A DNA stretch of 64,000 bases. It comes from Streptomyces sp. Edi2 (GTDB taxonomy: Bacteria; Actinomycetota; Actinomycetes; Streptomycetales; Streptomycetaceae). The first letter of the stretch is position 1. Every line of letters starts with the position of its first letter. The notes beneath the pieces are model-generated. The model searched no databases. It worked only from the letters and a program-made list of their open reading frames with translations, and was not told where the DNA came from. Shown here one piece after another: positions 6,208 through 41,107 of the stretch. The translations under genes and the position numbers were made by a program. The stretch spans positions 496,001 through 560,000 of the forward strand of contig NZ_JBEJGX010000003.1 in the NCBI RefSeq assembly GCF_040253635.1, written 5' to 3'.

Positions 6208-9200
6208 ATGGCTGACGACAAGAAAATTCTCGACACGCTCAAGCGGCTGACCACCGACCTCCGGCAGACCCGTCGCCGTCTCAAGGAGGTCGAGGACGCC
6301 CGTAACGAGCCGGTGGCCATCGTGGGGATGGCGTGCCGCTTCCCCGGCGGTGTGCAGAACCCCCAAGACCTCTGGAAGCTGCTCACTTCGGGTGGGGACG
6401 CCGTGTCCGCGTTCCCCGACGACCGTGGGTGGGACCTGGACCAGTTGTTCGGTTCGGAGGGCGTGGCAGGCACGTCGTATACCGCCGAGGGCGGATTCCT
6501 GGCCGGTGCGGGTGACTTCGACGCGGAAATGTTCGGCATTTCACCGCGGGAGGCACTGGCGATGGACCCGCAGCAGCGGCTGCTGCTGGAAGCGTCCTGG
6601 GAAGCCCTCGAAGACGCAGGGATCGATCCCCTCGCACTGCGCGGAAGCAGCACCGGCGTCTACGCCGGAGTGATGTACCACGACTACGGCTCCGGGGTGG
6701 ACACGCTGCCCGAGGAGATCGAGGGGTACCTCGGCATCGGCACAGCGGGCAGCGTGGCCTCTGGCCGGGTGTCGTATGTGCTGGGGCTCGAGGGGCCCGC
6801 GGTGACGGTGGACACGGCGTGTTCGTCGTCGTTGGTGGCGCTGCACTGGGCGGTGCAGTCATTGCGTTCAGGTGAGTGCTCCCTCGCGCTTGCGGGCGGT
6901 GTCACCGTCATGTGCAACCCGCGCATCTTCGTGGAGTTCAGCCGGCAGCGCGGCCTCGCCCCGAACGGCAGGTGCAAGTCCTTCGCCGCGGCAGCCGACG
7001 GCACCGGCTGGAGCGAGGGTGTGGGTGTGTTGGTGGTGGAGCGGTTGTCCGATGCCGTGCGGAACGGGCATCGGGTACTCGCAGTGGTACGGGGATCCGC
7101 GGTCAACCAGGACGGCGCCTCGAACGGGCTGACAGCTCCCAGCGGGCGGGCGCAGGAGCGGGTGGTGCGGCAGGCGTTGTCGGGTGCGGGGCTGAGGCCC
7201 GGCGATGTGGATGTCGTCGAAGGGCACGGCACCGGGACGCGGTTGGGCGATCCCATCGAAGTCGGCGCGCTGGTGGAAGCGTACGGCCGGGAACGGTCCG
7301 GCGCCCCCTTGCTGCTCGGCTCGGTGAAATCGAACCTCGGCCACACCCAAGCCGCCGCGGGTGTCGCAGGAATCATCAAAATGGTGCAGGCCATGCGCCA
7401 TGGCGTCGTCCCGGCATCGCAGCACGTCGACGCTCCCTCGCCGCATGTCCAGTGGGGTGAAGGCGTCGAGCTGGTCACGGCCGCGCAGGCATGGCCCGAA
7501 TCCGACCGACCGCGCCGCGCAGCGGTCTCGTCCTTCGGCGTCTCAGGAACCAACGCCCACGTCATCATCGAACAAGCCCCACCCGTACCCCCGCCCGTCC
7601 GCAAGAGCGGTGGTGTGGTGCCCTGGGTACTGTCCGGCCGCACCGCGGACGCGCTACGGGACCAGACCGACCGTCTGCGCACTCACCTGGAGTCCCACCC
7701 CGAACTCGACCCCGTCGACGTCGGATACACCCTCGCCGTAGGACGCACCCACTTCGAGCACCGCGCAATGGTGGTGGGAGAGACCCGGGATGACTTGCTG
7801 GCAGCGCTCACGACTGCCAAGACCACGAGTGTGCGTGCCGGGCGGACGGCTTTCCTGTTTCCCGGGCAGGGCAGTCAGCGGCTGGGGGCAGGAAGGCAGC
7901 TCGCGGAGGAATTCCCCGTGTTCGCCAAGGCGTTGGACGCGGTCCTCACCGAATTCGACCCCCACCTCGACGTCCCGTTGCGTCAGGTGATGTTCGCGGA
8001 ACCCGATTCGGAACGGGCGTCACTCCTCGACGAGACCGGTTACACCCAGCCGGCGCTGTTCGCGATCTCCGTGGCCCTTTTCCGGCTGGTTGAATCCTGG
8101 GGTCTCAAGCCCGACTTCCTGCTGGGCCACTCGATAGGTGAACTGGCTGCCGTCCATGTCGCCGGCTGTCTTTCGCTGCCGGACGCATGCGCACTGGTGG
8201 CGGCCCGCGGGCGACTGATGCAAGCTCTCCCCCGGGGCGGGGCGATGGTTGCCCTCCAGGCGTCCGAGGACCAGGTCGCTCCGGTCGTGGCTGCGGCCGG
8301 CGACCGGGTGTCCATCGCCGCGATCAACGGACCGTCGTCCGTGGTGATCTCCGGTGACGAGCAGACGGTGCTCGGCATCAAGGAGGAGTTCGAGCGCCGT
8401 GGCCGCAAGACCAAGCGGTTGCGTGTCTCCCACGCTTTCCACTCGGCTCATATGGATGACATGGTCGACGAGTTCCGGCGCATTGCCGCCGGTATGACGT
8501 TCCACGCACCCAGGATCCCGGTGGTCTCGGATGTGACGGGGCTTCTTGCCACTGCCGATCAGTTGTCCTCTCCGGACTACTGGGCCCGGCACGTGCGGGA
8601 AGCCGTGCGCTTCCACGACGGCATGCGCCAGCTGGCCTCCCAAGGCGTGCGCGCGTTCCTGGAACTGGGCGCGAGCGGAGCGCTTTCCGGTATGGGGCAG
8701 GACTGCCTGTACGACGTCGCGGACACGGTGTTCGCCCCCGCGCTGCGTGCGGACCGTCCGGAACCCCGGAGCATCGTCACCGCCGTTGCCCAGCTGCACA
8801 CCCATGGTGTGCGCGTCGACTGGCCCGCCTTCTGGGAGGACACGGACACGCGCAGGCAGGCACTGCCGGCCTATGCCTTCCAGCACCGGCGCTACTGGCT
8901 GGCCGACACCCCTGCCACGCCCCGCGGGGCCGACGCGCTCGGCCACCCCCTGCTCACCCACACGGTGCACCTCGCCGATGACCCGGACACGCAGGTGTTC
9001 AGCGGCAGCCTGTCGCTGCGGACGCACACCTGGCTGGCCGATCACCTCATCCACGGCACGGCCTTGCTGCCCGGAACGGCCTTCGTCGATCTTCTTCTGT
9101 ACGTAGGCGACCAGGTCGGGAGTCCCACGGTCGAGGAGCTGACCCTCGAAACGCCGCTGACCTTGCGCGATCAGGACCAGGTCGCACTCCAGGTGTCCCT

Positions 9201-12200
9201 CGGGCCGGAGGAGGCCGGGCGGCGGGACGTGCGGGTGTACGGGAGCACCGAGGACGGCGTCTGGACGCGCCACGCCAGTGGTGTCCTGACACACGCCGTC
9301 GAAGCCCGGACCGACGAGCTCGCGCAGTGGCCGCCGGCGTCGGCGACCGCAGTTGACCTGAGCGCCTTCTACGACCGGCTCGCCGATGACGGGTTCGACT
9401 ACGGTCCGGCGTTCCGCGGGCTGCGCGCGGCCTGGCGGCGAGGAGACGACCTGTTCGCCGAGGTCACTCTGCCCGAGGAGCGCCACGACGAGGCCGGCTC
9501 CTTCGGGCTGCACCCGGCTTTGTTCGACGCGGCGCTGCACATCGCGAGCGGGGAAGGGGCGCTGCCGTTCGCCTGGACGGGAGTGTCGCTGTTCGCCACG
9601 GGCGCCCGGGAGTTGCGCGTACGGGTGCGCCGCACGGGGCCGGCATCGGTATCGGTGCTGGTGACCGATGCCTCCGGACGGGCGGTGGCGGCAGCGGAGT
9701 CCCTGACGGCCCGGCCTGTCTCGACGCTGTCCAGCGGTCATGCGAACGCGCTGTTCCGTGTGGACCTGGTGCCGGAGCAGGTCACGGCGGCTCCGGTTTC
9801 CTGCGTGCAGCTCGGAGTCGGCGAACTGCCCACCGGGGCACGCTCGGTGCCCGACCTGGCCGCGCTGGTCGCGGAGATCGGATCCGGGGCGGCGGTGCCG
9901 GAGGTGGTGATCGTCGAGATACCGCGGGCGGACACCGCTCGGACCGCCCTGGGCACGACGCTGACTCTGGTCCAGGCATGGCTGGCCGACGAACGGCTCG
10001 CCGCCGCCCGCCTGGTGTTCCTCACGCGGAGCACGGACGGGTCCGGTCTCGCGGCGGCCGCGGTCCAGGGCCTGGTGCGTTCGGCCCAATCGGAGAACCC
10101 CGGCAGATTCGCCCTGGTCGACGTGGACGAGCACGATGCCTCCGCCACCGCGGTGCCGGCGGCGCTGGCCTCGGCCGAGCCGCAGTTGGTGATCCGGGCC
10201 GGTGTGACGCACGCGCCCCGGCTGGCCAAGGCAGGGCAGGACCTCGGGCAGGCCACCGCCTGGGACCGCGACGGCACGACCCTGATCACCGGAGGCAACG
10301 GCGCGCTGGCCAGGCTGCTGGCCAGGCACCTCATGGTCGAGCACGGCGTGCGTAACCTGCTGCTCGTCAGCAGAAGCGACCCGGACCGCGCGCTCGGTGA
10401 GCAACTGTCCGCACTCGGCGGCAACATCACCCAGGTGAGTTGCGACGTGGCCGATTCCGCGGCGCTGTCAGCCGTACTCCGGGCCGTTCCCGAGCACCAG
10501 CCGCTCACCGCCGTCGTGCACACCGCAGGGGTGCTGGCCGACGCTGTCATCCCGGCACTGACCGAACAGCACCTCAACCACGTTCTGCGTCCCAAGGTGG
10601 ACGGTGCGCTCAACCTGCACGAGCTGACCCGGGACCTCGACCTGTCCGCGTTCGTGATGTTCTCCTCCGCCGCGGGTGTCTTCGGCGGACCGGGCCAGGG
10701 CGCCTACGCGGCCGCCAACGCGATGCTGGACGCGCTGGCGGAGCAGCGCCACGCGTCCGGTCTCCCGGCACTGTCGCTCGCCTGGGGGCCATGGGTACAG
10801 AGCGGTGCGATGACCCGGGACCTCACGGACGTCGATGTTCACAGGATGAGTCGTTCCGGCGCGCGGCCGCTGTCCAACGAGGAGGGTCTGTCGCTGTTCG
10901 ACGCGGCACGGGCAGCGGGCGAACCGGTGATGGTGCCCATCCGGCTGGACCTGGCCGCCGTGCGACGCGCCGACGGCAGCGACGTACCGGCACCCGCCCT
11001 GCTGAGGGGGCTCGTCTCCCGTGGCCGCCGAACCGTCGCGGCCGCCCCGGGGCCGTCCCTGTCCGACCGGCTGGCCGGACAGCCGGATGACCAGCAGGAC
11101 CTGGTGCTGCTGGAACTCCTGCGCACCCACATCCGCGCGATTCTGGGACACAGCCCCACGCACGACGTCCCCGCCGACCGAGAATTCCTTGAACTGGGCT
11201 TCGATTCTCTGACCACCGTCGAACTACGGAACGGGCTGACTGCGGCAACGGGGTTGCGCCTTGCGCCGACGGCACTGTTCGACCACTCCACACCGATGGC
11301 ACTCGCCCAACACCTGCGGAACGAACTCACCCAGCGGGCGCCCACCCCCGACGCGCCGGATTTCGTGCTGGGCACATTGCTCCGGCAGGCCGCCGATGCC
11401 CGCCAGGCGGGAGAGTTCCTGGGACTGCTCACCGAGATGTCGCAGTTCAGGCCCGCCTTCCACACCGGCGTGGCGAGCAAGCCCGTTCGGCTCAGCGAAG
11501 GTGACCGTGGACCTGCCCTGATCTGCGTGCCGTCGATGCTGGCGGTATCAGGGCCGCACCAGTACGCCCGCTTGGCCGCTCCGTTCCGGGGGAACGCGAG
11601 GTGTGGGCCCTGCCCCTGCCCGGCTTCAGCCGTGATGAGCAGGTGCCGGCCACGCGGCAGGCCGTGCTGGAAGCGCTGGCCTCGGGGCTCGGAGAGGCCC
11701 GCCGCACGGAACCGTTCGTGCTGTTGGGCCATTCCACCGGTGGCATTCTGGCCCACGCCCTGGCGGCACACCTGGAGGCACAGGGAGCGGGGCCGGCAGG
11801 GGTGGTGCTGGCGGACGTGCTTGATCTGTCCGAAGGTGACGACCGGGACGCCATCGCCCCCGCCTTGATCTCGGCGGTCCTCGAGCGCGACAACGTCCAT
11901 GTGCCGGTCGACGACACCCGCCTGACCGCGATGGGCGCCTATCTGCGGTTGTTCCAAGGGTGGAAGCCCACCGTCGTCGACACACCCACCTTGTTCCTGC
12001 GGGCATCCGACTCGATGGCCCAGGAGACCAACGGAGGCCGGTGGCAGACCTCCTGGCCCCTGGAGCACGTCGCGCTGGATGTTCCCGGCAACCACTTCAC
12101 CATGCTGGAGCAGCACAGTGACATCGCAGCCGGTCTCGTCGAGGACTGGCTCCAAAAATGTTCTTCCCTAGTGATCAACAGCGATCAACACAGCAATAAG

Positions 12201-29126: not shown

Positions 29127-30812
29127 CTATGCCAGGGCGGTGGGTGGGCCGGCGGCGAACTCGACGTGGCGGGACCTGCGCAGCCGTCGGACGGCCTCGC
29201 GCTGGACCTTGCCCGATTCGGTGCGGGGCAGGTCGTCCACGAACTCGACGAACCGCACCAGCTTGGGCGCGGGCAGATGTTTTTCCAGGTGCGCGAAGAG
29301 TGCTTCGGCGGTGGCGCGGCTGGCATTCCAGCCGGCGCTGAGCACGACGTACGCCTTGGGTGCCAGTGCCGTGCCCTCGGACACGGGTACCACGGACAGT
29401 TCGGCGACGGCGGGGTGCAGCACCAGCACGTGTTCCAGTTCGAGGGGAGCGATCAGCGTCCCGTCCGGTCCCTCGAACACGTCCTTGCGGCGCCCGAGAT
29501 AGACCAGGGAACCGTCGCTGTCCCACCGGGCCAGGTCACCGGTCCGGTAGAGGCCGCCCGGCGTATGGCTGGTGGCATTATCCTCCGGGTCGAGGTAGCC
29601 GCGCATCATGCCGACGGGCTCGTTGGTCAGGTCCAGGCACAGTTCGCCCTCCTGAGCCGGCTCATCGGTACCGGGCCGCACCACCACCAGCTCGTAGCCC
29701 GGCAGCGGGTAGCCCATGGATACCGGGTCCGCCGGGGAAGAGGCGGTGACCCCGGCCATGGCGGTGACCTCGGACTGTCCGAAGCCATTGCGGACGGTCA
29801 CCCCGGCCAGCCTGCGGACCTGTTCGACCACATCACCCATGAGCGGTTCACCGACACTGACGGCGTGCCTCAACCCGGGCAGGCCGTCGGGCAGCCCGGT
29901 CCGGATCAGTGCGCGCCAGATGCTGGGCGGCGCACAGAAGCTGGTGACCGTCCCGGTCCCCAGTACCTCCAGCAGCCGCTGCGGGGTCGCGTCGGCGTTG
30001 TCCATGGACACCACGGTGGCCTCGGCGTTCCAGGGCCCGAACAGCGAGCTCCACGGGTACTTCGCCCAGGCCGGGGCGGAGACGTTGAGGTGCACATCCC
30101 CCGGCTTCAGACCGTTCCAGTACATGCTCGCCAGATGCCCGATCGCGTAGCTGACGTGCGTGTGCACCACCAGCTTCGGCCGTGAGGTGGAGCCGGAGGT
30201 GAAGTAGTAGAACAGCGGCTCGTCGGCCTCGGTGGGGCCTTCCGGCACGAAGTCGCCCTCGTGCTCGGCCGAGGTGGCGAAGTCGGCCCAGCCCTCGTGC
30301 TCGCCGCCCACGATGATCCTGGTGCGGAGGCCGTCCACGGCGAGCCCCGGCACGATCCGGTGGTCGGCGATCACATGCCGGGCTCCGGCCCTGCCGATCC
30401 TGGTGCGCAGTTCCTCGGGCGAGATGGTGATGAAGGCGGGCGCGACAACGGCACGGATCTTGATCAGGGCGAGCATCAGCTCCCACAGCTCGATCCGGTT
30501 GTCCATCAGCAGCATCACCACGTCGCCGCGGCGGATGCCCTGCGACAGCAGCCAGCTTGCGGCCCGGTCGGAACGCCGGGAAAGCTCCTGGAAGGTCAGC
30601 TCCCCCTGTCCGACGATGCGCAGCGCCACCCGGTCGTTGTCCTGGGCGATCCGGTCGAACCAGTCGGTCGCCCAGTTGAACTGCCGTGGCCGCGGCCACC
30701 GGAACGCCTTGCGCGCGGCGTCCTGGTCGTTGGCGTGGTGCAAAAGGAGGTCCCGCGCGGCACGGAACTCCCGGTACGCATCGTCTTGCCCGGACAACTT
30801 GTCCCCGATCAC
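29127..30812 (-). CDS. Acyl-AMP ligase, acetyl-/medium-chain acyl-CoA synthetase-like
   Basis: A 561-residue adenylate-forming enzyme. Motifs: YYFTSGSTSRPKLVVHTH (A3), RNGFGQSEVTAM (A5), YRTGDLARWDSDG (A7), and LPRTESGKVQREAVR with the catalytic Lys (A10). The A8 hinge is unusual: GRRKDVFEGPDGTLIAPLE in place of GRxDDVIxxxGYRIxPxE. The overall pattern recalls medium-chain acyl-CoA synthetases. It is the last gene of a minus-strand operon with a free carrier protein, so it more likely loads that carrier than makes free CoA esters. GTG start at 30812 lies within the second copy of a 17-bp repeat that also contains the stop of the preceding gene. Substrate unknown. Confidence 0.85.
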   Translation of the reverse strand: MIGDKLSGQDDAYREFRAARDLLLHHANDQDAARKAFRWPRPRQFNWATDWFDRIAQDNDRVALRIVGQGELTFQELSRRSDRAASWLLSQGIRRGDVVMLLMDNRIELWELMLALIKIRAVVAPAFITISPEELRTRIGRAGARHVIADHRIVPGLAVDGLRTRIIVGGEHEGWADFATSAEHEGDFVPEGPTEADEPLFYYFTSGSTSRPKLVVHTHVSYAIGHLASMYWNGLKPGDVHLNVSAPAWAKYPWSSLFGPWNAEATVVSMDNADATPQRLLEVLGTGTVTSFCAPPSIWRALIRTGLPDGLPGLRHAVSVGEPLMGDVVEQVRRLAGVTVRNGFGQSEVTAMAGVTASSPADPVSMGYPLPGYELVVVRPGTDEPAQEGELCLDLTNEPVGMMRGYLDPEDNATSHTPGGLYRTGDLARWDSDGSLVYLGRRKDVFEGPDGTLIAPLELEHVLVLHPAVAELSVVPVSEGTALAPKAYVVLSAGWNASRATAEALFAHLEKHLPAPKLVRFVEFVDDLPRTESGKVQREAVRRLRRSRHVEFAAGPPTALA

Positions 30813-30848
30813 TGGAAGGTGTTGGACTCGGCGATCACTGGAAGGTGT
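30806..30848. repeat. 17-bp direct repeat at a gene junction
   Basis: CGATCACTGGAAGGTGT occurs at 30806-30822 and 30832-30848, a 26-bp tandem period. Read on the minus strand, one copy supplies the TGA stop of the oxidoreductase and the other the GTG start of the ligase, both from the same GTGA. Confidence 0.85.
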
Positions 30849-32748
30849 GGGGCCCGGCCCGGCGCAGCACGCTGAGGGCTATCACGTCGGCGTCCCTGGA
30901 GAAGGAGGTGTGCACGCCCGGCCGGCCGTTGCCGATCTGGGTGAACCAGCACACCCGCTCGGTCGGGATGCCCAGCGCGTACAGGGCCCGGTGCGGCCGG
31001 CCGTCGGCCGCGATCACCCGGCGTTCGGCCGGGGTGATGTGCAGCGCCCCGGTGGCAAACATCTCTTCGGTGTCGCCGTGCACGAAGTCGACGGCCATCC
31101 GCTCCTCGACCAGCTGCCGCATCAGCGGATCGGTGTTGCGGATCAGGCCGGCGGTCGGGATCCGGGAGTCGATGAGCACGTCGCAGTGCCTGCGCGAGCC
31201 CTCGACGGCCGGGGATTCCAGGAAGAACCGGCCCTGCTCGGTGTCGCATCCGTGGACCACGTCCGGCCCTGCCACGTCGAGCACCCTGGCATCGATCAAC
31301 GCCAGGAACTGCGCGGTGCGTTCCAGCGGCGGGCCGGTGAACAGCGTCGAGGTGCGTGAGACGAACCGGCCGAGGAAGTCGGCCCGATGGGATCGCGGGG
31401 TCAGGCCACCGAAGTCCACGGCGTGCCGCAGCACTTCGCGGGAGTCGCGGATGGCGTCCAGCGCGGCCTTGAGCGGACTGTCCACGTTGCCCTGGCCGGC
31501 CTCGGTGATGTCGGCGAGCAGAATGCGCCGTACCTCGGCGACCACGTCGGCACCGGAGTCGAACCGTTTGGTGTGCAACGGTCTGGACAGCTGGTCCAGG
31601 TCGACCGGTTCCACGTCGGCGAGCTCGTGGCGCAGGACCACCTCGCGCCAGCTCGCCAGGTCCGGGCCGAGTGCGCGGAGCTCGGCGCCGACCGCCTCGG
31701 CACGCTCCGGCCCGTGCTGGGTCCTCGCCTGGGTGGTGTAGTACACGTAGTTGATTTCGGCCTGCAGTAAGGACAGCACGTCGCGGTCGAAGTCCAGGGC
31801 GGGGTTGCCCCGGTGCACCGCGTTGCGCTCGCGCAGCCGGCCGATGGCGGCCGAGGTGAGGAACTTCGGCGCCGCGCGTTCGGTCACCCCTTTCTGGTTG
31901 CGGCCCCGCGAACGGATCGGCAGTCCGCTGCGCGAGCCCGCGACCACCGTGGGCTCATTGCCGCTGGGCACGTAGCACATCGCCCCGTCGCCGTTCACCT
32001 TGAACTTTCCGCCTCGGCCGACGGTGAAGGACATCAGGATGTCGTAGAAGGACAGGCCGAGCCCCACGATGCCGACCGAGGTGCCGGGCGGGATCGACCG
32101 CAGTTCCAGGTCGGCGGCCGAGTCCCCGCTGAGGTAACAAAGTCCGGACCGGTCCCGTGCGAACCGCGCCAGCTCGGACTGGTGCTCGGACAGCTCCGCC
32201 TGGGCGTGCCCGGTGGTGATGACCACGGCGCCGGCGGTCACGGTGCGCTCGTCGTCCGAGGTGGACACCCGGAGTTCGTAGCTGTTGCCGTTCTCCCGCA
32301 ACGAGGTGACCTTGCCGACCACTTCGACGACCTCGCCGAGCCCGGACATGGCACGTACCACCGCGTCGTACACGTAGCGCAGGTACCGGCCGTAGGCGTA
32401 CCTCGGTGCGTAGTCGTCATGGTCCAGTCCGGACAGCTCCGGTTCCGGCTGCGTGTGCAGCCACTGCTGGAAGGACAGGCCGGCGCCCGGCCGGCATGGC
32501 TCACCGTCAGCGACCCCGGAGAACATACTGATTTCACCGACGACGGTGTTCATCAGGAAGCTGGTCTCCTGGTCGGTTCGCCAGATCCGGCCCGCTCCCA
32601 GTTCCACCGCGTCGATCAGCCAGATCCTGACGTTCGGCGGCTCCGTCTCGGCCATCCGATTGGCCGCGATCCGCTCGAACACCGAGATCCCGCGCGGTCC
32701 GGTGCCCACGATTGCGACGTCCAGCACGCTATCGGTCAGGTGTTGCAC
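30835..32748 (-). CDS. FAD/NAD(P)-binding oxidoreductase (NAD_binding_9-like)
   Basis: A 637-residue two-dinucleotide-domain flavoprotein. The FAD motif DVAIVGTGPRGISVFERIAA is at residues 9-28, and a second Rossmann motif, GIVGLGLSFYDI, follows near 230. Between them lie YAPRYAYGRYLRYVYDAV and an ITTGHAQ segment. This matches the family labelled FAD/NAD(P)-binding protein, whose relatives include lysine/ornithine N-hydroxylase-like and other N- or C-oxidising flavoenzymes. Its length leaves a large C-terminal domain of unknown role. It lies between the TrpB-like enzyme and the acyl ligase in one operon and may oxidise a carrier-bound amino acid. Start GTG at 32748 after a GGGGG site. Reaction unknown. 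Confidence 0.78.
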   Translation of the reverse strand: MQHLTDSVLDVAIVGTGPRGISVFERIAANRMAETEPPNVRIWLIDAVELGAGRIWRTDQETSFLMNTVVGEISMFSGVADGEPCRPGAGLSFQQWLHTQPEPELSGLDHDDYAPRYAYGRYLRYVYDAVVRAMSGLGEVVEVVGKVTSLRENGNSYELRVSTSDDERTVTAGAVVITTGHAQAELSEHQSELARFARDRSGLCYLSGDSAADLELRSIPPGTSVGIVGLGLSFYDILMSFTVGRGGKFKVNGDGAMCYVPSGNEPTVVAGSRSGLPIRSRGRNQKGVTERAAPKFLTSAAIGRLRERNAVHRGNPALDFDRDVLSLLQAEINYVYYTTQARTQHGPERAEAVGAELRALGPDLASWREVVLRHELADVEPVDLDQLSRPLHTKRFDSGADVVAEVRRILLADITEAGQGNVDSPLKAALDAIRDSREVLRHAVDFGGLTPRSHRADFLGRFVSRTSTLFTGPPLERTAQFLALIDARVLDVAGPDVVHGCDTEQGRFFLESPAVEGSRRHCDVLIDSRIPTAGLIRNTDPLMRQLVEERMAVDFVHGDTEEMFATGALHITPAERRVIAADGRPHRALYALGIPTERVCWFTQIGNGRPGVHTSFSRDADVIALSVLRRAGPHTFQ

Positions 32749-32776
32749 GACCTGTCCCCCTTTCTAGGGCTCGCCT

Positions 32777-34168
32777 TCAGCGCGCAGCCGCGCCCAGGTC
32801 GTCCATGGCCGGCAGGCGTCCGAGCGAGGCGGTGATCAACTCGTCAGACGCCGCCATGTCGGTCATGTTCCCGCTGAGGAACTGCTGGTAGGCCGACAGG
32901 TCGAGCAGGCCGTGGCCGCTGAGGTTGAACAGGATGACCCTCTCCCTGCCCTCCTTCTTGGCCTGCAGCGCCTCTTCGATCGCGCCCCGGATGGCGTGCG
33001 CCGACTCGGGGGCCGGGATGATGCCCTCCTCATTGGCGAAGGTGAGACCGGCCTCGAACACCGGGCGCTGCGCGTAGGCCACCGCCTCGATCAGCTTCTG
33101 GTGGTACATCGCGCTCACCAAGGGAGCGGCGCCGTGGTAGCGCAGGCCGCCGGCGTGGATGCCCGGGGAGACGAAGGTGTGCCCCAGGGTGTACATCTTG
33201 GTCATCGGTGTGATGCCGGTGTAGTCGTTGTAGTCCCAGGCGTAACGGCCCTTGGTGAGCTTGGGGCATGCCTCCGGTTCCACCGCGACGAACCGAGTCT
33301 CCAGGCCCTCGCGCACCTTCTCGTGGAAGAACGGCAGGCAGATGCCGGAGAAGTTGCTGCCCGCGCCGACCGAGCCGATGACCACATCCGGGAAGTCGCC
33401 GATGGCGCGGAACTGCCGGACCGCTTCCTGTCCGATCACGGTCTGGTGCAGCAGGACGTGGTTCTCCCCGCTGCCCACCGAGAGGTTGCAGCGCTCCACC
33501 TGGCGCGCATGCTCGAAGGCCTCCGCGTTGGCGATGGACAGGCTGCCGTCGGTGTTCGGATCGCGGGCCAGCGCGGCGCGCCCGGCCTCGGAGTTCTCGT
33601 TGGGGCTGGAGATGACCTTGGCCCCGTTCATCTCCATCATGATCCGGCGGTAGGGCTTCTGGTCGTAGCTGACCCGGACCATGTAGACGGTGCACTCAAG
33701 GCCGAAGATGCGGCAGGCGACGGCGAGGGCCGAGCCCCACTGGCCGGCGCCGGTGCCGGTGGTCAGGCTGGTGATGCCGGCCTGCTTGTAGTAGTAGGCC
33801 TGGGCGAGGGCGGTGTTCAGCTTGTGGCTGCCGGTGGTGTTGGTGCCCTCGTACTTGTAGTAGATGCGGGCCGGGGTGTCGAGCAGCTGCTCCAGCCGGC
33901 GTGCCCGGTGGAGCGGGGTCGGCCGCCAGCGCAGGTACTCCTCGCGTACCGGCTGCGGGATCTCGACGAACCGTTCCTGGCCCATGCTCTGCCGGTACAT
34001 CGACAGCGGGATCTGCGGGGTGACCGAGCCACCGCCCTCGCGGGACTCCGGCCTGGCCTGGCGCAGCTTCGCCGCGTCCTCGACGCCGGTGAGGTCGGAC
34101 AGCACGTTGTACCAGTGAGTGGGAACGATTTCTTCAGCGGTCAGCGAGGCTTCTGCCGAATTCACCAT
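32777..34168 (-). CDS. TrpB2-like PLP enzyme with altered active site
   Basis: A 463-residue fold-type II PLP enzyme clearly of the TrpB2 type: RPTPLHRARRL, YKYEGTNTTGSHKLNTALA with PLP Lys116, GAGQWGSALAVAC, GSVGAGSNFSGI and the C-terminal LSGHGLLDLSAYQ. The glutamate that tryptophan synthases carry before TGAGQ is Gly138 here (GGC, complement 33755-33757). That Glu helps expel the serine hydroxyl and activate indole, so tryptophan synthesis is unlikely. No trpA is nearby. It sits between a carrier protein and a flavoprotein, so it probably makes or modifies a non-standard amino acid by beta-elimination or beta-replacement. Which nucleophile is used is unknown. Confidence 0.88.
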   Translation of the reverse strand: MVNSAEASLTAEEIVPTHWYNVLSDLTGVEDAAKLRQARPESREGGGSVTPQIPLSMYRQSMGQERFVEIPQPVREEYLRWRPTPLHRARRLEQLLDTPARIYYKYEGTNTTGSHKLNTALAQAYYYKQAGITSLTTGTGAGQWGSALAVACRIFGLECTVYMVRVSYDQKPYRRIMMEMNGAKVISSPNENSEAGRAALARDPNTDGSLSIANAEAFEHARQVERCNLSVGSGENHVLLHQTVIGQEAVRQFRAIGDFPDVVIGSVGAGSNFSGICLPFFHEKVREGLETRFVAVEPEACPKLTKGRYAWDYNDYTGITPMTKMYTLGHTFVSPGIHAGGLRYHGAAPLVSAMYHQKLIEAVAYAQRPVFEAGLTFANEEGIIPAPESAHAIRGAIEEALQAKKEGRERVILFNLSGHGLLDLSAYQQFLSGNMTDMAASDELITASLGRLPAMDDLGAAAR

Positions 34169-34187
34169 GCGTTTCCGATCCTCGTTT

Positions 34188-34445
34188 CTAGGAATTTTCC
34201 ACGTGCGACTGGACCAGTTTCACGAGATCTTCGACCCGACACAGCGCGGCCTCGAATATCTCGCTGTCACCGACCGTGATGCCACATTCCTTCTCGACCC
34301 GTACGACGATTTCAAGAATGGTCAACGAGTCGATTCCGATCTCGCGCAACTCGTCATCAATCTTGATTTCGGCCGGCGCGGACGATCCGAGTACGGCTGC
34401 GATGATCTCGCATACCCGGGTGTCAACCTTCACAGGAGACGTCAA
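34188..34445 (-). CDS. Free-standing acyl/peptidyl carrier protein
   Basis: An 85-residue carrier protein. The phosphopantetheine site is Ser40 in REIGIDSLTILEIVVRVE, in a four-helix acidic sequence of normal length. It lies 19 bp upstream of the TrpB2-like gene and 45 bp downstream of the LysE gene on the same strand. A discrete carrier beside an acyl-AMP ligase implies that a small acid or amino acid is processed while tethered. It is too far from the PKS (22 kb) to be assumed part of it. Confidence 0.9.
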   Translation of the reverse strand: MTSPVKVDTRVCEIIAAVLGSSAPAEIKIDDELREIGIDSLTILEIVVRVEKECGITVGDSEIFEAALCRVEDLVKLVQSHVENS

Positions 34446-34490
34446 GGCAATACCTCTTCCCTGGAGTTCTTCGCTTTTCCCGCTGTTCCG

Positions 34491-35123
34491 CTAGGCCATG
34501 GGCCCCGTCATCACTGCGGTGCGCAGCCCGAGCAGCAGCAGAACCGCCCCGCTCACCCAGGCCAGTCCCACCCGCATCGCCGGCATGGCCAGCAGCCGCC
34601 GCGCCAGGCCGACGAGGGTGACCACCACCGCGTACCAGCCGGCGCTGATCATGATCTGCACGGCGGTCAGCGTGACCACGTCGGCGGGCGAACCGCCGCC
34701 GACCGGCAGGAACTGTGGGATCAACGCCAGGTAGACGGTAGCCATTTTGGGGTTGGCGGCACTGGTGACCAGCCCCGACCGGTAGGACCGCCACAGGTCG
34801 GCGCCGCCGTGCTCGTCAGGCGCCTGTTCCGGCGGCTCGCCGAACTTCCACCGGTTGCGCACCGTCGTCACCGCGAGATAGCAGAGGTAGGCGGCGCCCA
34901 CCAGCTTGAATGCGGTGAACACCAGCGGAGAGGTCTGGGTCAGTGCGGCCAGCCCGAGGGCGGAGGCCGCCGCCCACATGAGCAGCCCGGTGCTGCTTCC
35001 GAGAATGGTCACCAACCCGGCACCGCGTCCAAAGCGGAGCGTCTCGTTCACCAACACCATGAATGACGGCCCCGGTGCGGCCACCATCGCAAAAATCGTC
35101 GCGATGAAAACCCAAGTCACCAT
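34491..35123 (-). CDS. LysE/RhtB-family amino acid exporter
   Basis: A 210-residue inner membrane exporter with about six helices. The family hallmark is the N-terminal MVAAPGPSFMVLVNETLRFG and the SAANPKMATVYLALIPQF segment. Relatives export lysine, homoserine, threonine or other amino acids and derivatives. As first gene of the carrier-protein/TrpB2/flavoprotein/ligase operon it probably exports the amino-acid-like product or gives self-protection. ATG at 35123; the promoter should lie in 35124-35700, which holds no other credible gene. Confidence 0.88.
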   Translation of the reverse strand: MVTWVFIATIFAMVAAPGPSFMVLVNETLRFGRGAGLVTILGSSTGLLMWAAASALGLAALTQTSPLVFTAFKLVGAAYLCYLAVTTVRNRWKFGEPPEQAPDEHGGADLWRSYRSGLVTSAANPKMATVYLALIPQFLPVGGGSPADVVTLTAVQIMISAGWYAVVVTLVGLARRLLAMPAMRVGLAWVSGAVLLLLGLRTAVMTGPMA

Positions 35124-35701
35124 GGAGTTTCCGCAATATTCATGGTCATTCGACCGGAGAGCACAGTTAACGCTTGTGCATCCAATCGAAACGACCCCCC
35201 TTCAAGGTCCGAAATCCCCCGGATCTTGATCACCATCATTGGAACGCTAGCCGCTGGTGATGACCTCAGGCAACAAGCTGGGAAAATAAATTCCTGAGTA
35301 TGGGAGGAAGTTACGAGGCAGTAAGAATCAATTTTGGTCACCCCGGAGTGCGACCACGAGCCCACCACGTCGGAGTACTGCTGCAGATGGTGCACATTCG
35401 GCCATGAACATGCCCTCGCCCGTGGGCCGGAGGCGTGTCCATCACCACACTTCCGCTCCCCGTGGAACCAACCGACGGGAAATGCACTGTAAGCGTGGTG
35501 GAGAAGGCCGCGATCGGGCAGAGCCGTGCGGTGGTTGCGCCCGCACCACGCGGGTGGCACCTGTGACGAGCGAAGTGGCCGGAGCATTCCTCTTGAGCCT
35601 GCGGAGTCCCGGGCAGGGACATCTCCACGGCGCGCAGGGTCACTGCCCGCTCCGACGTGAGCGGGCGGCGGGACGAAGAACTGCCGGAAAGATGCGGTGG
35701 G

Positions 35702-38016: not shown

Positions 38017-38325
38017 CCTTTGACACCTCCCGCTCGCGCGCTGACGACTCCGAGCACACAGCGAATGACCTCCAGGAACTCGCGCGCTGACCTGCGGGTT
38101 GACCGCGGTGCTCACCCGGACCAACTCAACCACCCTCGGGCCACCTGAAGAACTCAGTCACAAGTGGCGGTAGAACGTCACGACTGCCCGACCTGTGACG
38201 CCCCCGCCTGCCGCACTCGCGGCGGTCTAAGTAGATCCAGGCCATGGTGGGAGAAAGGTCCTCTCAGAGTGGTGCAGCGCGGACCGGGGGCCTCTTCGGC
38301 CGGCGACTCGCTGCCCGCCACCGCA

Positions 38326-38430
38326 TCACGGTCGGCGAACATCCTGCGGCGTTCGGCGGCGCATCCGTTCCCGCACCGAGCCGTGGGTGGTCACGGCGCG
38401 CAGCGCACGCAGGCGATTCAGGTCGAACAT
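38326..38430 (-). pseudogene. LysR-family regulator remnant (N-terminus only)
   Basis: The minus strand from 38430 encodes MFDLNRLRALRAVTTHGSV, the standard start of a LysR regulator. It then diverges and stops at 38326 after 34 residues. The helix-turn-helix continuation is absent. A LysR gene divergent from an EamA transporter is a common pair; here only the transporter survives intact. Confidence 0.6.
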
Positions 38431-38535
38431 GAAGCGATGCTAATACCCCACCTTCAGAAACCTTCGCTGGCCCTTTCGGACGGCGACTGTTGTGATGGGA
38501 CATCCCGAAGAAGCGCGTCTCCAGGAGCAATTGGC

Positions 38536-39441
38536 ATGAAGCCCGTACACGTGGCCTTGGCGGTGGTCGTCGCCGCCGTATGGGGTGTGAACTTCGTCGT
38601 GATCGACATAGGGTTGCGCGATTTTCCCCCACTTCTCTTCTCGGCGGTGCGCTTCCTTCTCGCCGCGCTGCCGGCGATCTTCTTCGTCGGGCGGCCAAGA
38701 GTGGCCTGGCGCTGGGTGATTGCGGTCGGCGTCACGCTCGGCATCATGAAATTCGGAATGCTGTTCATCGGAATGCACGCGGGGCTCCCCCCGGGGCTCG
38801 CCTCCCTGGTTCTGCAGGGTCAGGCGGTCTTCACCGTGCTCTTCGCCGCGGTGCTGCTGAAAGAGCGCGCCCGGCGGGCGCAGATCGTCGGCATGGTCAT
38901 CGCCTCGGTGGGCATCGCGCTGGCCGGACTGGACTCGACGGCCGGCACACTGGCCGGATTCCTGCTGGTGGTGGGCGCGGCGGCCTGCTGGGGCCTGTCG
39001 AACATCGCGATGCGGAAGGCCGGGCCGCCGGACACCTTCCGGTTCATGGTCTGGGTGAGCGTCGTGCCGCCGGTCCCGCTCGCGCTCCTCTCCGTGCCCT
39101 TCGAAGGCTGGGACGCGGACCTGCGGGCACTGCAGCATCTGCATCTCAGCTCAGTGGGCGCGGCGCTCTATGTGGCCTGGGGGGCAACGCTGTTCGGATT
39201 CGCCGCATGGGGGTATCTCCTGCGCACCTATGACGCACCGACCGTCGCCCCCTTCTCGTTGCTCGTCCCGATATTCGGCCTGGCCTCCGCGTGGATTTTC
39301 CAGGGCGAGCGCATGACCGTGCTGACATTCTGCGCCACGGCTCTGGTGATCGCCGGCATCACGGTCGGAATGCTGCGCCGCACGAAACGGCCGACGCAGC
39401 ATGAAATCGACCGCGCGACGGTAACTGCCGCGGCGCCCTGA
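38536..39441 (+). CDS. EamA-family (DMT superfamily) transporter
   Basis: A 301-residue membrane protein with ten helices in two EamA repeats: first repeat from VALAVVVAAVWGVNFVVIDIGL, second from GFLLVVGAAACWGLSNIAMRKAG. Related exporters move cysteine pathway metabolites, amino acids or other small molecules. ATG at 38536 follows AGGAG; the longer frame from 38164 is not supported. Its probable divergent LysR regulator is reduced to a fragment, so expression may no longer be controlled. Between 38017 and 38325 I see no gene. Confidence 0.9.
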   Translation: MKPVHVALAVVVAAVWGVNFVVIDIGLRDFPPLLFSAVRFLLAALPAIFFVGRPRVAWRWVIAVGVTLGIMKFGMLFIGMHAGLPPGLASLVLQGQAVFTVLFAAVLLKERARRAQIVGMVIASVGIALAGLDSTAGTLAGFLLVVGAAACWGLSNIAMRKAGPPDTFRFMVWVSVVPPVPLALLSVPFEGWDADLRALQHLHLSSVGAALYVAWGATLFGFAAWGYLLRTYDAPTVAPFSLLVPIFGLASAWIFQGERMTVLTFCATALVIAGITVGMLRRTKRPTQHEIDRATVTAAAP

Positions 39442-40210: not shown

Positions 40211-41107
40211 ATGGAGATCCGCACGATCCGGTACTTCCTCACGGTGGTCGACACCGGGTCCCTCTCGGCGGCGTCGCGCGCCCTGCACGTCGCCCAGCCC
40301 TCGCTGTCCCGGCAGGTGCGTCAGCTCGAGACGTCCCTGGGCTGCGAGCTCTTCGTACGGCACCGCGGGCGGCTGCACATCAGCCCGGCCGGAGCCCGCC
40401 TGCTGCCCGTCGCCCGCGATCTGGTCACCCGGCACGACCAGGCGGTGGCGATGATGCGCGCCCTCGCCGAGGGGCGCGAGCCGCGTCTGACGGTCGCCTG
40501 CACGGTGACCACCATCAATGACGTCCTCGCGCCCCTGGCCGCTGTCTCGCGGCACGCCGTACTCAACCTGATGGAGGTGCCCACCGCGGCCATCGCCGAC
40601 ACCGTCTCCAGCGGGCAGGCGGACCTCGGATTCTCCTCGCATCCGGGGGCGACCGACCTGGAGGCCGACCTCGTCGTGCGCTTCCCGGTGTTCGCACAGG
40701 TGCCCGCCGAGCACCCCTGGGCGGGCCGCTCCACCGTGCCGCTGACGGAGCTCGTACGCGAACCTCTCATCGTTCCCACCCTCGCCTACTCCGCGCGCCG
40801 GGTGTTCGACGACCATCTGTCGAGGATGGCCGGTCCGTTCGGCCGGCAGTCCGTACAGGAGATGGACCTGCCGCGCGCCGCCCAGGCACTGGCGGCGCGG
40901 GGAGAGGGCGTGGCGATCGTCACCGACGAACCGCAGTACGGCCTGCACCCGATAGTGATCACCGGCCCCGCACCGGGCGAACGCGTCGACCTGCCGCTGT
41001 TCGCTCTCTGGAACGCCACCCACTACGCCGCGGAACTCATCGGGCGGTGCGTGGCCGAGGTACGCGAATTCTGCCTCCGCACGTTCCCCGACGCGGGCCC
41101 TGCCTGA
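40211..41107 (+). CDS. LysR-family transcriptional regulator
   Basis: A 298-residue LysR regulator. The N-terminal winged HTH reads MEIRTIRYFLTVVDTGSLSA, then VAQPSLSRQVRQLETSLGCE and FVRHRGRLHISPAGARLL. A periplasmic-binding-protein-like effector domain follows (about 90-290). It lies upstream of a peptide transporter and an M20 amidohydrolase on the same strand, with a 468-bp gap, and may control them in response to a peptide or aminoacyl ligand. Start ATG at 40211. Confidence 0.93.
   Translation: MEIRTIRYFLTVVDTGSLSAASRALHVAQPSLSRQVRQLETSLGCELFVRHRGRLHISPAGARLLPVARDLVTRHDQAVAMMRALAEGREPRLTVACTVTTINDVLAPLAAVSRHAVLNLMEVPTAAIADTVSSGQADLGFSSHPGATDLEADLVVRFPVFAQVPAEHPWAGRSTVPLTELVREPLIVPTLAYSARRVFDDHLSRMAGPFGRQSVQEMDLPRAAQALAARGEGVAIVTDEPQYGLHPIVITGPAPGERVDLPLFALWNATHYAAELIGRCVAEVREFCLRTFPDAGPA

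Follow-up and report, generated by a model that had tools for sequence, protein, structure and literature searches.

What does a short operon make that combines an amino-acid exporter, a free carrier protein, a tryptophan-synthase-like enzyme, a flavoprotein and an acyl-AMP ligase? We asked this of five minus-strand genes in a 64,000-nucleotide stretch of the 9.8-Mb genome of Streptomyces sp. Edi2 (contig NZ_JBEJGX010000003.1, positions 496,001 to 560,000; hereafter the window, numbered from its first letter). The TrpB2-like enzyme lacks the catalytic glutamate of its family, a loss that goes together with a carrier protein gene directly upstream, and the flavoprotein belongs to the L-aspartate N-hydroxylase family but has an altered substrate chamber. 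The reading that we favour, and hold tentatively, is that the operon is a hybrid cassette whose product is a non-protein amino acid, N-oxygenated and exported.

All five open reading frames (ORFs) were confirmed. They are separated, from exporter to ligase, by gaps of 45, 19, 28 and 22 bp, and their Pfam and NCBIfam matches, coordinates and spacing bear out the families and close packing named in a first-pass annotation of the sequence:

34491..35123, minus strand: LysE-family amino-acid exporter, 210 aa, first gene of the operon (PF01810, 104.3 bits; cut-off 25.6)
34188..34445, minus strand: free-standing acyl/peptidyl carrier protein (ACP), 85 aa, TTG start as listed (PF00550, 48.9 bits)
32777..34168, minus strand: TrpB2-like pyridoxal phosphate (PLP) enzyme, 463 aa (TIGR01415, 551.8 bits, cut-off 518.85; PRK12391, 632 bits, cut-off 366)
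30835..32748, minus strand: flavin (FAD)/NAD(P) protein of the CreE/FzmM L-aspartate N-hydroxylase family, 637 aa (PF13454; PDB 8cp2/8cp5)
29127..30812, minus strand: acyl-AMP ligase of the ANL family, 561 aa, last gene of the operon (PF00501 and PF13193)

A TrpB2 without its catalytic glutamate is paired with a carrier protein gene

Like the solved TrpB2 enzymes (6hul, 4qys and 6hte), the operon enzyme belongs to the TIGR01415 family and retains the PLP lysine (Lys116) and the carboxylate loop TGAGQ. It differs from them in that the motif TETGAGQWG reads TGTGAGQWG, which places Gly138 at the position of the catalytic glutamate, and in having an ACP gene directly upstream. Glycine also occupies this position in the aligned orthologues of the operon enzyme, and its 120 best database matches comprise 115 with glycine and five with alanine. 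Glutamate was present at all 28 other actinobacterial TrpB2 loci that we read; these rank best among the other loci of a phylum sample that gave matches in 233 of its 396 genomes. TrpB2 relatives occurred in 22 of the 295 genomes of a genus sample (E<=1e-100), and the 21 loci read there, the window apart, included 13 without the glutamate, seven with it and one with aspartate; at the strict threshold of E<=1e-172, the operon TrpB2 was found in its own genome only in a class-wide sample (1 of 394). In a TrpB2 tree, a single branch (support 100/99) parts the glutamate-lacking rows from those with glutamate or aspartate; the tree is unrooted, has no TrpB1 outgroup, includes the trait column and counts one aspartate row as glutamate, with 13 database rows not counted.

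The earlier description of a PLP β-substitution enzyme needs changing, in that this is no ordinary one but a glutamate-lacking form tied to an ACP. We rejected tryptophan supply as its role because the genome encodes a separate TrpB relative (33% identity to the operon enzyme) and because the catalytic glutamate is missing. In engineered TrpB, the substitution E104G takes away a side chain essential for native reactivity, according to an excerpt of PMC12135140, and an E105G variant was used with phenol and naphthol, according to an excerpt of PMC12909874.

We found an ACP gene 15–201 bp upstream, on the same strand, at 22 of 22 glutamate-lacking TrpB2 loci examined (about 21 distinct, L011 and L097 apparently being the same strain), compared with none of nine loci with glutamate or aspartate. 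We took these loci from the genus and phylum samples. The 22 do not include the window, and nine of them (L098, L156 and L167–L173) lie outside the training set of the hidden Markov model (HMM) used for ACPs.

The pairing is also visible from the side of the flavoprotein. A scan of a species-genome collection with a flavoprotein profile gave 104 relatives, of which the best 80 are the denominator for the flavoprotein-locus counts; gene contexts were established by tblastn and HMM tests. TrpB2 lies beside the flavoprotein in seven of these 80. With an HMM of the ACP subfamily, an ACP was detected within 6 kb at all seven TrpB2-type loci and at none of the other 73, to which a broader ACP HMM adds one weak match (L084, 5.6 kb away, E=0.003). 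A relative of the ligase, by comparison, accompanies the flavoprotein without TrpB2 at 41 of 42 glutamate-mutase-type loci and 9 of 12 unassigned loci, and at none of 19 loci of LeuA/aminotransferase type. Because ACPs are present at every TrpB2-type locus and nearly absent from the rest, we conclude from gene context that the ACP goes with TrpB2, while the ligase accompanies the flavoprotein also where TrpB2 is missing.

A second clade of glutamate-lacking TrpB2 (L166–L173 and L176, the last being NZ_CP109002.1) likewise has an adjacent ACP. Its conserved cluster holds a glutamate-5-semialdehyde-dehydrogenase-like enzyme, one or more ligases, acyl-CoA dehydrogenase-type flavoenzymes (ACADs) and further ACPs, with a PLP decarboxylase in L166–L169 and a flavin reductase and phosphopantetheinyl transferase in L176.

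The flavoprotein appears to be an N-oxygenase with an altered chamber

The flavoprotein has a single match in the PDB, the L-aspartate N-hydroxylase 8cp2/8cp5, which scores 276 bits in a sequence search and 412 bits in a profile search; the profile match to 8cp2 spans residues 9–631 of 637 (E=4e-122). Homology to 8cp2, CreE and FzmM is full-length, with FAD, NADPH and arginine-cluster residues in common. Leaving the Asn413 site aside, 10 of 12 mapped 8cp2 residues are identical (Arg13, Trp51, Asn62, Arg266, Arg276, Arg409, Arg412, Arg416, Arg577 and Arg597). The substitutions are Glu438 for the entry-chamber residue Asn413, Phe602 for Val571 and leucine for Arg593; phenylalanine at the Val571 site is common across the wider family. 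The partners differ as well, being a ligase, an ACP and TrpB2, with CreD not found. In the L-aspartate N-hydroxylase, mutation N413E abolished aspartate hydroxylation and hardly affected NADPH oxidase activity, according to an excerpt of PMC10404684. Since the very asparagine whose mutation to glutamate kills aspartate hydroxylation is naturally glutamate or aspartate here, the flavoprotein appears, by family and altered chamber, to be an N-oxygenase for a substrate other than aspartate. The oxidising flavoprotein of the first-pass annotation, there a large FAD/NAD(P) oxidoreductase, can thus be narrowed to this family and chamber. Given Glu438, we no longer take a plain aspartate N-hydroxylase to be the simplest reading. 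The genome does encode a second N-oxygenase of the family (L002/L095; G000:C3:2630934-2632811), which is probably a true aspartate N-hydroxylase because all 13 checked residues are as in 8cp2, including the asparagine, the valine and both arginines.

The Asn413 site is acidic at all seven TrpB2-linked loci (six glutamate, one aspartate) and at none of the 73 others (42 of glutamate-mutase type, 19 of LeuA/aminotransferase type and 12 other). A genus set of 30 flavoprotein loci, which includes the window and overlaps the other sets, gave the same picture (3 of 3 TrpB2-linked loci versus 0 of 27 others). We regard an acidic residue here as a strong, non-exclusive sequence marker of TrpB2 context.

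The glutamate-mutase cassettes (L014, L050 and others) resemble the operon in their flavoprotein–ligase pair, at roughly 40–50% identity, but where the operon has TrpB2 and ACP they have mutase genes, and their Asn413 site is non-acidic in 42 of 42 loci. At L050:8082-13605 and the 42 mutase-type loci, the gene for a CreE-family N-oxygenase is fused to, or neighbours, those for B12-dependent glutamate mutase subunits, and in 41 of the 42 an acyl ligase gene comes next, an arrangement that suggests N-oxygenation of 3-methylaspartate. In 19 of the best 80 loci, including L032 (Vibrio hepatarius), L041 (Photobacterium) and L012, the N-oxygenase family occurs without a ligase, accompanied by some of an aminotransferase, a 2-oxoglutarate oxygenase, an isochorismatase-family hydrolase, a cupin-like protein and LeuA/aconitase-like proteins.

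Membership of this family raises the possibility that the flavoprotein plays the part of CreE and the ligase that of CreM, with nitrite released from an amino acid and activated for N–N bond formation; CreE is an N-oxygenase of the flavoprotein's family and CreM an ANL ligase, according to an excerpt of PMC11705231. We consider this very improbable. A general Pfam scan of 33 window ORFs found no lyase family that could correspond to CreD (the other loci were not scanned with a CreD model), and none is among the 26 listed features around the Streptomyces angustmyceticus copy of the operon, whose feature table may be incomplete. Moreover, the Asn413 site is altered, and the ACP and TrpB2 would be left without explanation. 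A putative CreM-like diazotase role for the ligase is a weak rival.

The ligase and sister cassettes

The best NCBIfam match of the operon ligase is MbcS (254 bits, under the cut-off of 850), and its best PDB matches are the 4-hydroxybutyrate-CoA ligase 8biq (280 bits) and then 3etc (249 bits); among known enzymes it most closely resembles short-chain acyl-CoA synthetases. Asp235, which contacts the α-amino group and is aspartate in seven comparison domains, has no equivalent: a lysine is aligned there, in an alignment of distant sequences. The ligase therefore does not look like an amino-acid adenylation domain, and because of both features a small acid, such as a nitro acid, fits it better than an α-amino acid. 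The earlier idea that an amino acid is loaded on the carrier finds no support in this enzyme.

Four sister cassettes (L132, L157, L158 and L159), with the order ACP, TrpB2, ACAD, adenylation enzyme and esterase, bear on how TrpB2 and the carrier may work together. They share with the operon an ACP directly before a glutamate-lacking TrpB2 (59–73% identity) and, in L132, a LysE-family gene; they differ in their ACAD, which is unrelated to the operon flavoprotein, their amino-acid adenylation domain and their esterase. Neither a proline-type code in the ligase nor an ACAD is found among the five operon genes. The adenylation codes are DLLYLALVCK, DLFYLALVCK, DLFYLALVCK and DLLYSALVCK, respectively, the first of which we take to denote proline. 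The best single-enzyme PDB match of the L132 ligase is the L-prolyl-carrier-protein ligase 6o6e (343.8 bits), two multi-domain synthetases scoring higher in total. The best models for the ACADs of L132 and L158 are the prolyl-carrier dehydrogenases RedW and PigA, under their cut-offs (for L132, 406 and 404 bits against 650 and 500). If these enzymes act like their relatives, the carrier would hold a pyrrole-2-carboxyl group. Because a proline-type ligase and a prolyl-carrier-type dehydrogenase serve the sister ACP, the amino acid loaded there is unlikely to come from TrpB2, which probably uses the indole-like carrier-bound group as its nucleophile. This analogy is the main argument for the mechanism that we propose for the operon. 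It also bears on the earlier phrase 'made or oxidised on a carrier', since the sister cassettes argue that TrpB2 acts after carrier loading and is not the source of the loaded amino acid.

The L132 cassette (L132:6553-14357, genome G380) contains, beside its LysE-family gene, an Lrp-like regulator (identified by eye) and a stand-alone B3/4-domain protein, which suggests that an unusual amino acid is exported and that the cell is perhaps also protected from it. The L132 TrpB2 is read in two frames, its N-terminal part at 9183-9320 and the remainder at 9329-10540.

The opposite order, in which TrpB2 acts first, deserves weighing here. TrpB2 would make a β-substituted alanine with a basic side chain (for example 2,3-diaminopropionate from phosphoserine and ammonia), the ligase would load it on the ACP, and its amine would be hydroxylated there by the N-oxygenase, somewhat as proposed for L-alanosine, before export through LysE. 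In alanosine biosynthesis the proposed hydroxylation is a carrier-bound step, and LysE exporters handle amino acids. The acidic Asn413 site would suit a substrate that carries an amine at the place of the aspartate carboxylate. For alanosine, an excerpt of PMC11705231 puts forward the hypothesis that a flavin-dependent ACAD hydroxylates L-diaminopropionate, and the L-alanosine cluster described there resembles the operon in a proposed flavin N-hydroxylation of an amino acid but has an ACAD-type hydroxylase and a cupin of its own. Among the five operon genes we found no alanosine-type diaminopropionate synthase, ACAD N-hydroxylase or cupin; the SbnA model scores 23 bits on TrpB2. The ligase without Asp235 argues against loading of an amino acid, the sister carriers seem to hold a proline-derived group, and loading of a TrpB2 product does not explain why ACP and TrpB2 pair. 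The flavoprotein–ligase pair, moreover, occurs without TrpB2 at 50 of the 73 other loci (41 mutase-type, nine unassigned). We regard this order, the main rival to the pathway proposed below, as unlikely.

Proposed pathway

In the pathway that we favour, the acyl-AMP ligase and the NADPH/FAD-dependent N-oxygenase would charge the dedicated ACP with an N-oxygenated acyl group, either hydroxylamino or nitro. The glutamate-lacking TrpB2 would form a PLP aminoacrylate from serine or phosphoserine and add to it the nucleophile presented by the ACP, such as a nitronate carbon or the nitrogen or oxygen of a hydroxylamine. The product would then be released and exported by LysE. Because the nucleophile would be presented by the ACP, no glutamate would be needed for the activation of an indole NH. 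The sequences establish the enzyme families, and from there the substrates, order and product are inferred; which nucleophile is used, and whether oxidation precedes loading, is guesswork. The self-contained route to an exported unusual amino acid that had been suggested is right in outline, given a conserved carrier cassette, an amino-acid-type exporter and an oxidising flavoprotein.

Several observations weigh against this pathway. The cassette contains no thioesterase, which leaves the release step unexplained. In this operon the ACP might just as well hold an amino acid that TrpB2 has made, as the operon ligase is not of proline type, and the ACAD and proline assignments in the sister cassettes rest on family resemblance under cut-offs and on the reading of the adenylation code. 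Compensating changes could let the flavoprotein still take aspartate. An acidic Asn413 site is present in 32 of 120 database proteins, whose contexts are mostly unseen, and is thus not exclusive to TrpB2; P0103, an N-oxygenase fused to glutamate mutase, has aspartate there and is an exception to the context rule. Both ACP HMMs were partly trained on the ACPs counted above, and orthologous loci are not independent events. Finally, at L162 and L163, two of the nine loci with glutamate or aspartate, the broader HMM finds ACP-like genes of a different kind, which lie 2.29 and 2.35 kb upstream of the glutamate-type TrpB2 in clusters that also hold ACAD and ligase genes, and TrpB2 in carrier pathways is, by gene content, not limited to the glutamate-lacking form. 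These genes weaken the contrast in kind between the two forms, but not the adjacency result. L162:8430-14012 also includes a transglutaminase-like ORF and a small cupin-like one, both identified by eye.

A more general proposal, plausible but somewhat doubtful, is that glutamate-lacking TrpB2 enzymes form a class of carrier-protein-dependent amino-acid synthases, in which a tethered nucleophile is delivered to the PLP aminoacrylate and in which loss of the glutamate and gain of the ACP were one switch. The switch would be from free indole to carrier-bound nucleophiles, genomic pairing being the one aspect examined. Candidate phosphopantetheine-bound nucleophiles would be pyrrole-type groups in the proline cassettes and an N-oxygenated acyl group, such as a nitronate, in the operon. 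Products of the class would be natural amino acids with new C–C, C–N or C–O bonds.

Conservation and genomic neighbourhood

The five genes occur together in S. celluloflavus, S. zagrosensis, Streptomyces sp. NBC_01306, S. diastatochromogenes, S. coffeae and Streptomyces sp. SID10853 (L005–L010; 68–98% identity per protein). Two further copies are in genome G259 (L098) and on a 616-kb plasmid of S. angustmyceticus (L156; 91.9% DNA identity). Strain OK074 (L011) has four genes in the same order, with no LysE found beside them by tblastn. Within the sample of 295 genomes, the operon's own genome and G259 have all five genes and G014 has four. The order is kept in all eight other five-gene loci examined (L005–L010, L098 and L156), which argues that the operon is not a chance assembly and answers the first-pass annotation's call for synteny outside this strain.

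Two gene calls merit comment. A rough gene selection by GC content at codon positions picked four of the five ORFs and not the ACP, which we accept as a gene because of its Pfam match and conservation. Its PP-binding domain scores above the PF00550 cut-off with the attachment residue Ser40 within GIDSL, and the S. angustmyceticus orthologue is annotated as an acyl carrier protein; the cispentacin carrier AmcB, its best NCBIfam ACP match, was rejected as its identity (34.7 bits, far under the cut-off of 80). The LysE gene scores 110 bits with the homoserine/threonine-efflux model TIGR00949, under the cut-off of 183.95, and is 83–97% identical to its orthologues in L005–L010, L098 and L156. A 156-aa ORF overlapping the LysE start (35117-35587) had no family match in a Pfam scan and was set aside. 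An EamA-type exporter (PRK11453, 205.7 bits, under the cut-off of 472) and a LysR regulator are encoded near the operon (window 38164-39441 and 40211-41107).

To the left of the operon, window positions 742-25687 are filled by a modular polyketide synthase (PKS) cluster of the para-aminobenzoate (PABA)/AurF type. It comprises two PKS modules, an AurF-like oxygenase, a methyltransferase, an AsnB-like enzyme, a DAHP (3-deoxy-D-arabino-heptulosonate 7-phosphate) synthase, a PabA/B-like enzyme, an AMP ligase, a class IV aminotransferase and an isochorismatase-family protein. The statement that no PKS or nonribosomal peptide synthetase is attached is thus correct for the five genes but not for their surroundings. 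The operon might supply a building block, in which case its amino acid would be attached to the PABA-started polyketide of the neighbouring cluster, perhaps through the AsnB-like enzyme. The PABA/AurF/AsnB block also adjoins the operon in S. angustmyceticus (L156) and, as far as the contig shows, S. coffeae (L009), and in OK074 the four-gene version is flanked by distant relatives of AurF (37%) and AsnB (27%). However, the strains with the PABA block are the nearest relatives, and the examined flanks of L005–L008, L010 and L098, all with five genes, have no match to it, which argues that the five genes are a separable cassette. We judge the supplier role distinctly improbable.

The pathway had been called an orphan. 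The flavoprotein–ligase and ACP–TrpB2 pairs each recur in other cassettes, so the label does not fit the parts; for the five-gene set as a whole, no characterised pathway with the same genes was found in the open-licence full-text literature. Judged by titles and abstract openings in that literature, which leaves subscription papers mostly outside its scope, the operon, carrier-linked TrpB and glutamate-mutase/N-oxygenase cassettes appear undescribed. The component families are known; what seems new is the pairing of glutamate-lacking TrpB2 with an ACP and the way in which this pair is joined to an altered N-oxygenase.

Implications

Engineers removed the catalytic glutamate of TrpB to widen its range of partners, and actinobacteria seem to have made the same change and tied it to a carrier. 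Because glutamate loss is coupled to an ACP, a small number of purified proteins would suffice for a direct test of the idea. If it is true, there would be a natural family of amino-acid synthases that form C–C and C–heteroatom bonds, and an N-oxygenase of new specificity, its relatives named in the excerpts cited here being enzymes that oxidise aspartate. The operon would then encode a short exported pathway, the product of which may be an antimetabolite-like amino acid.

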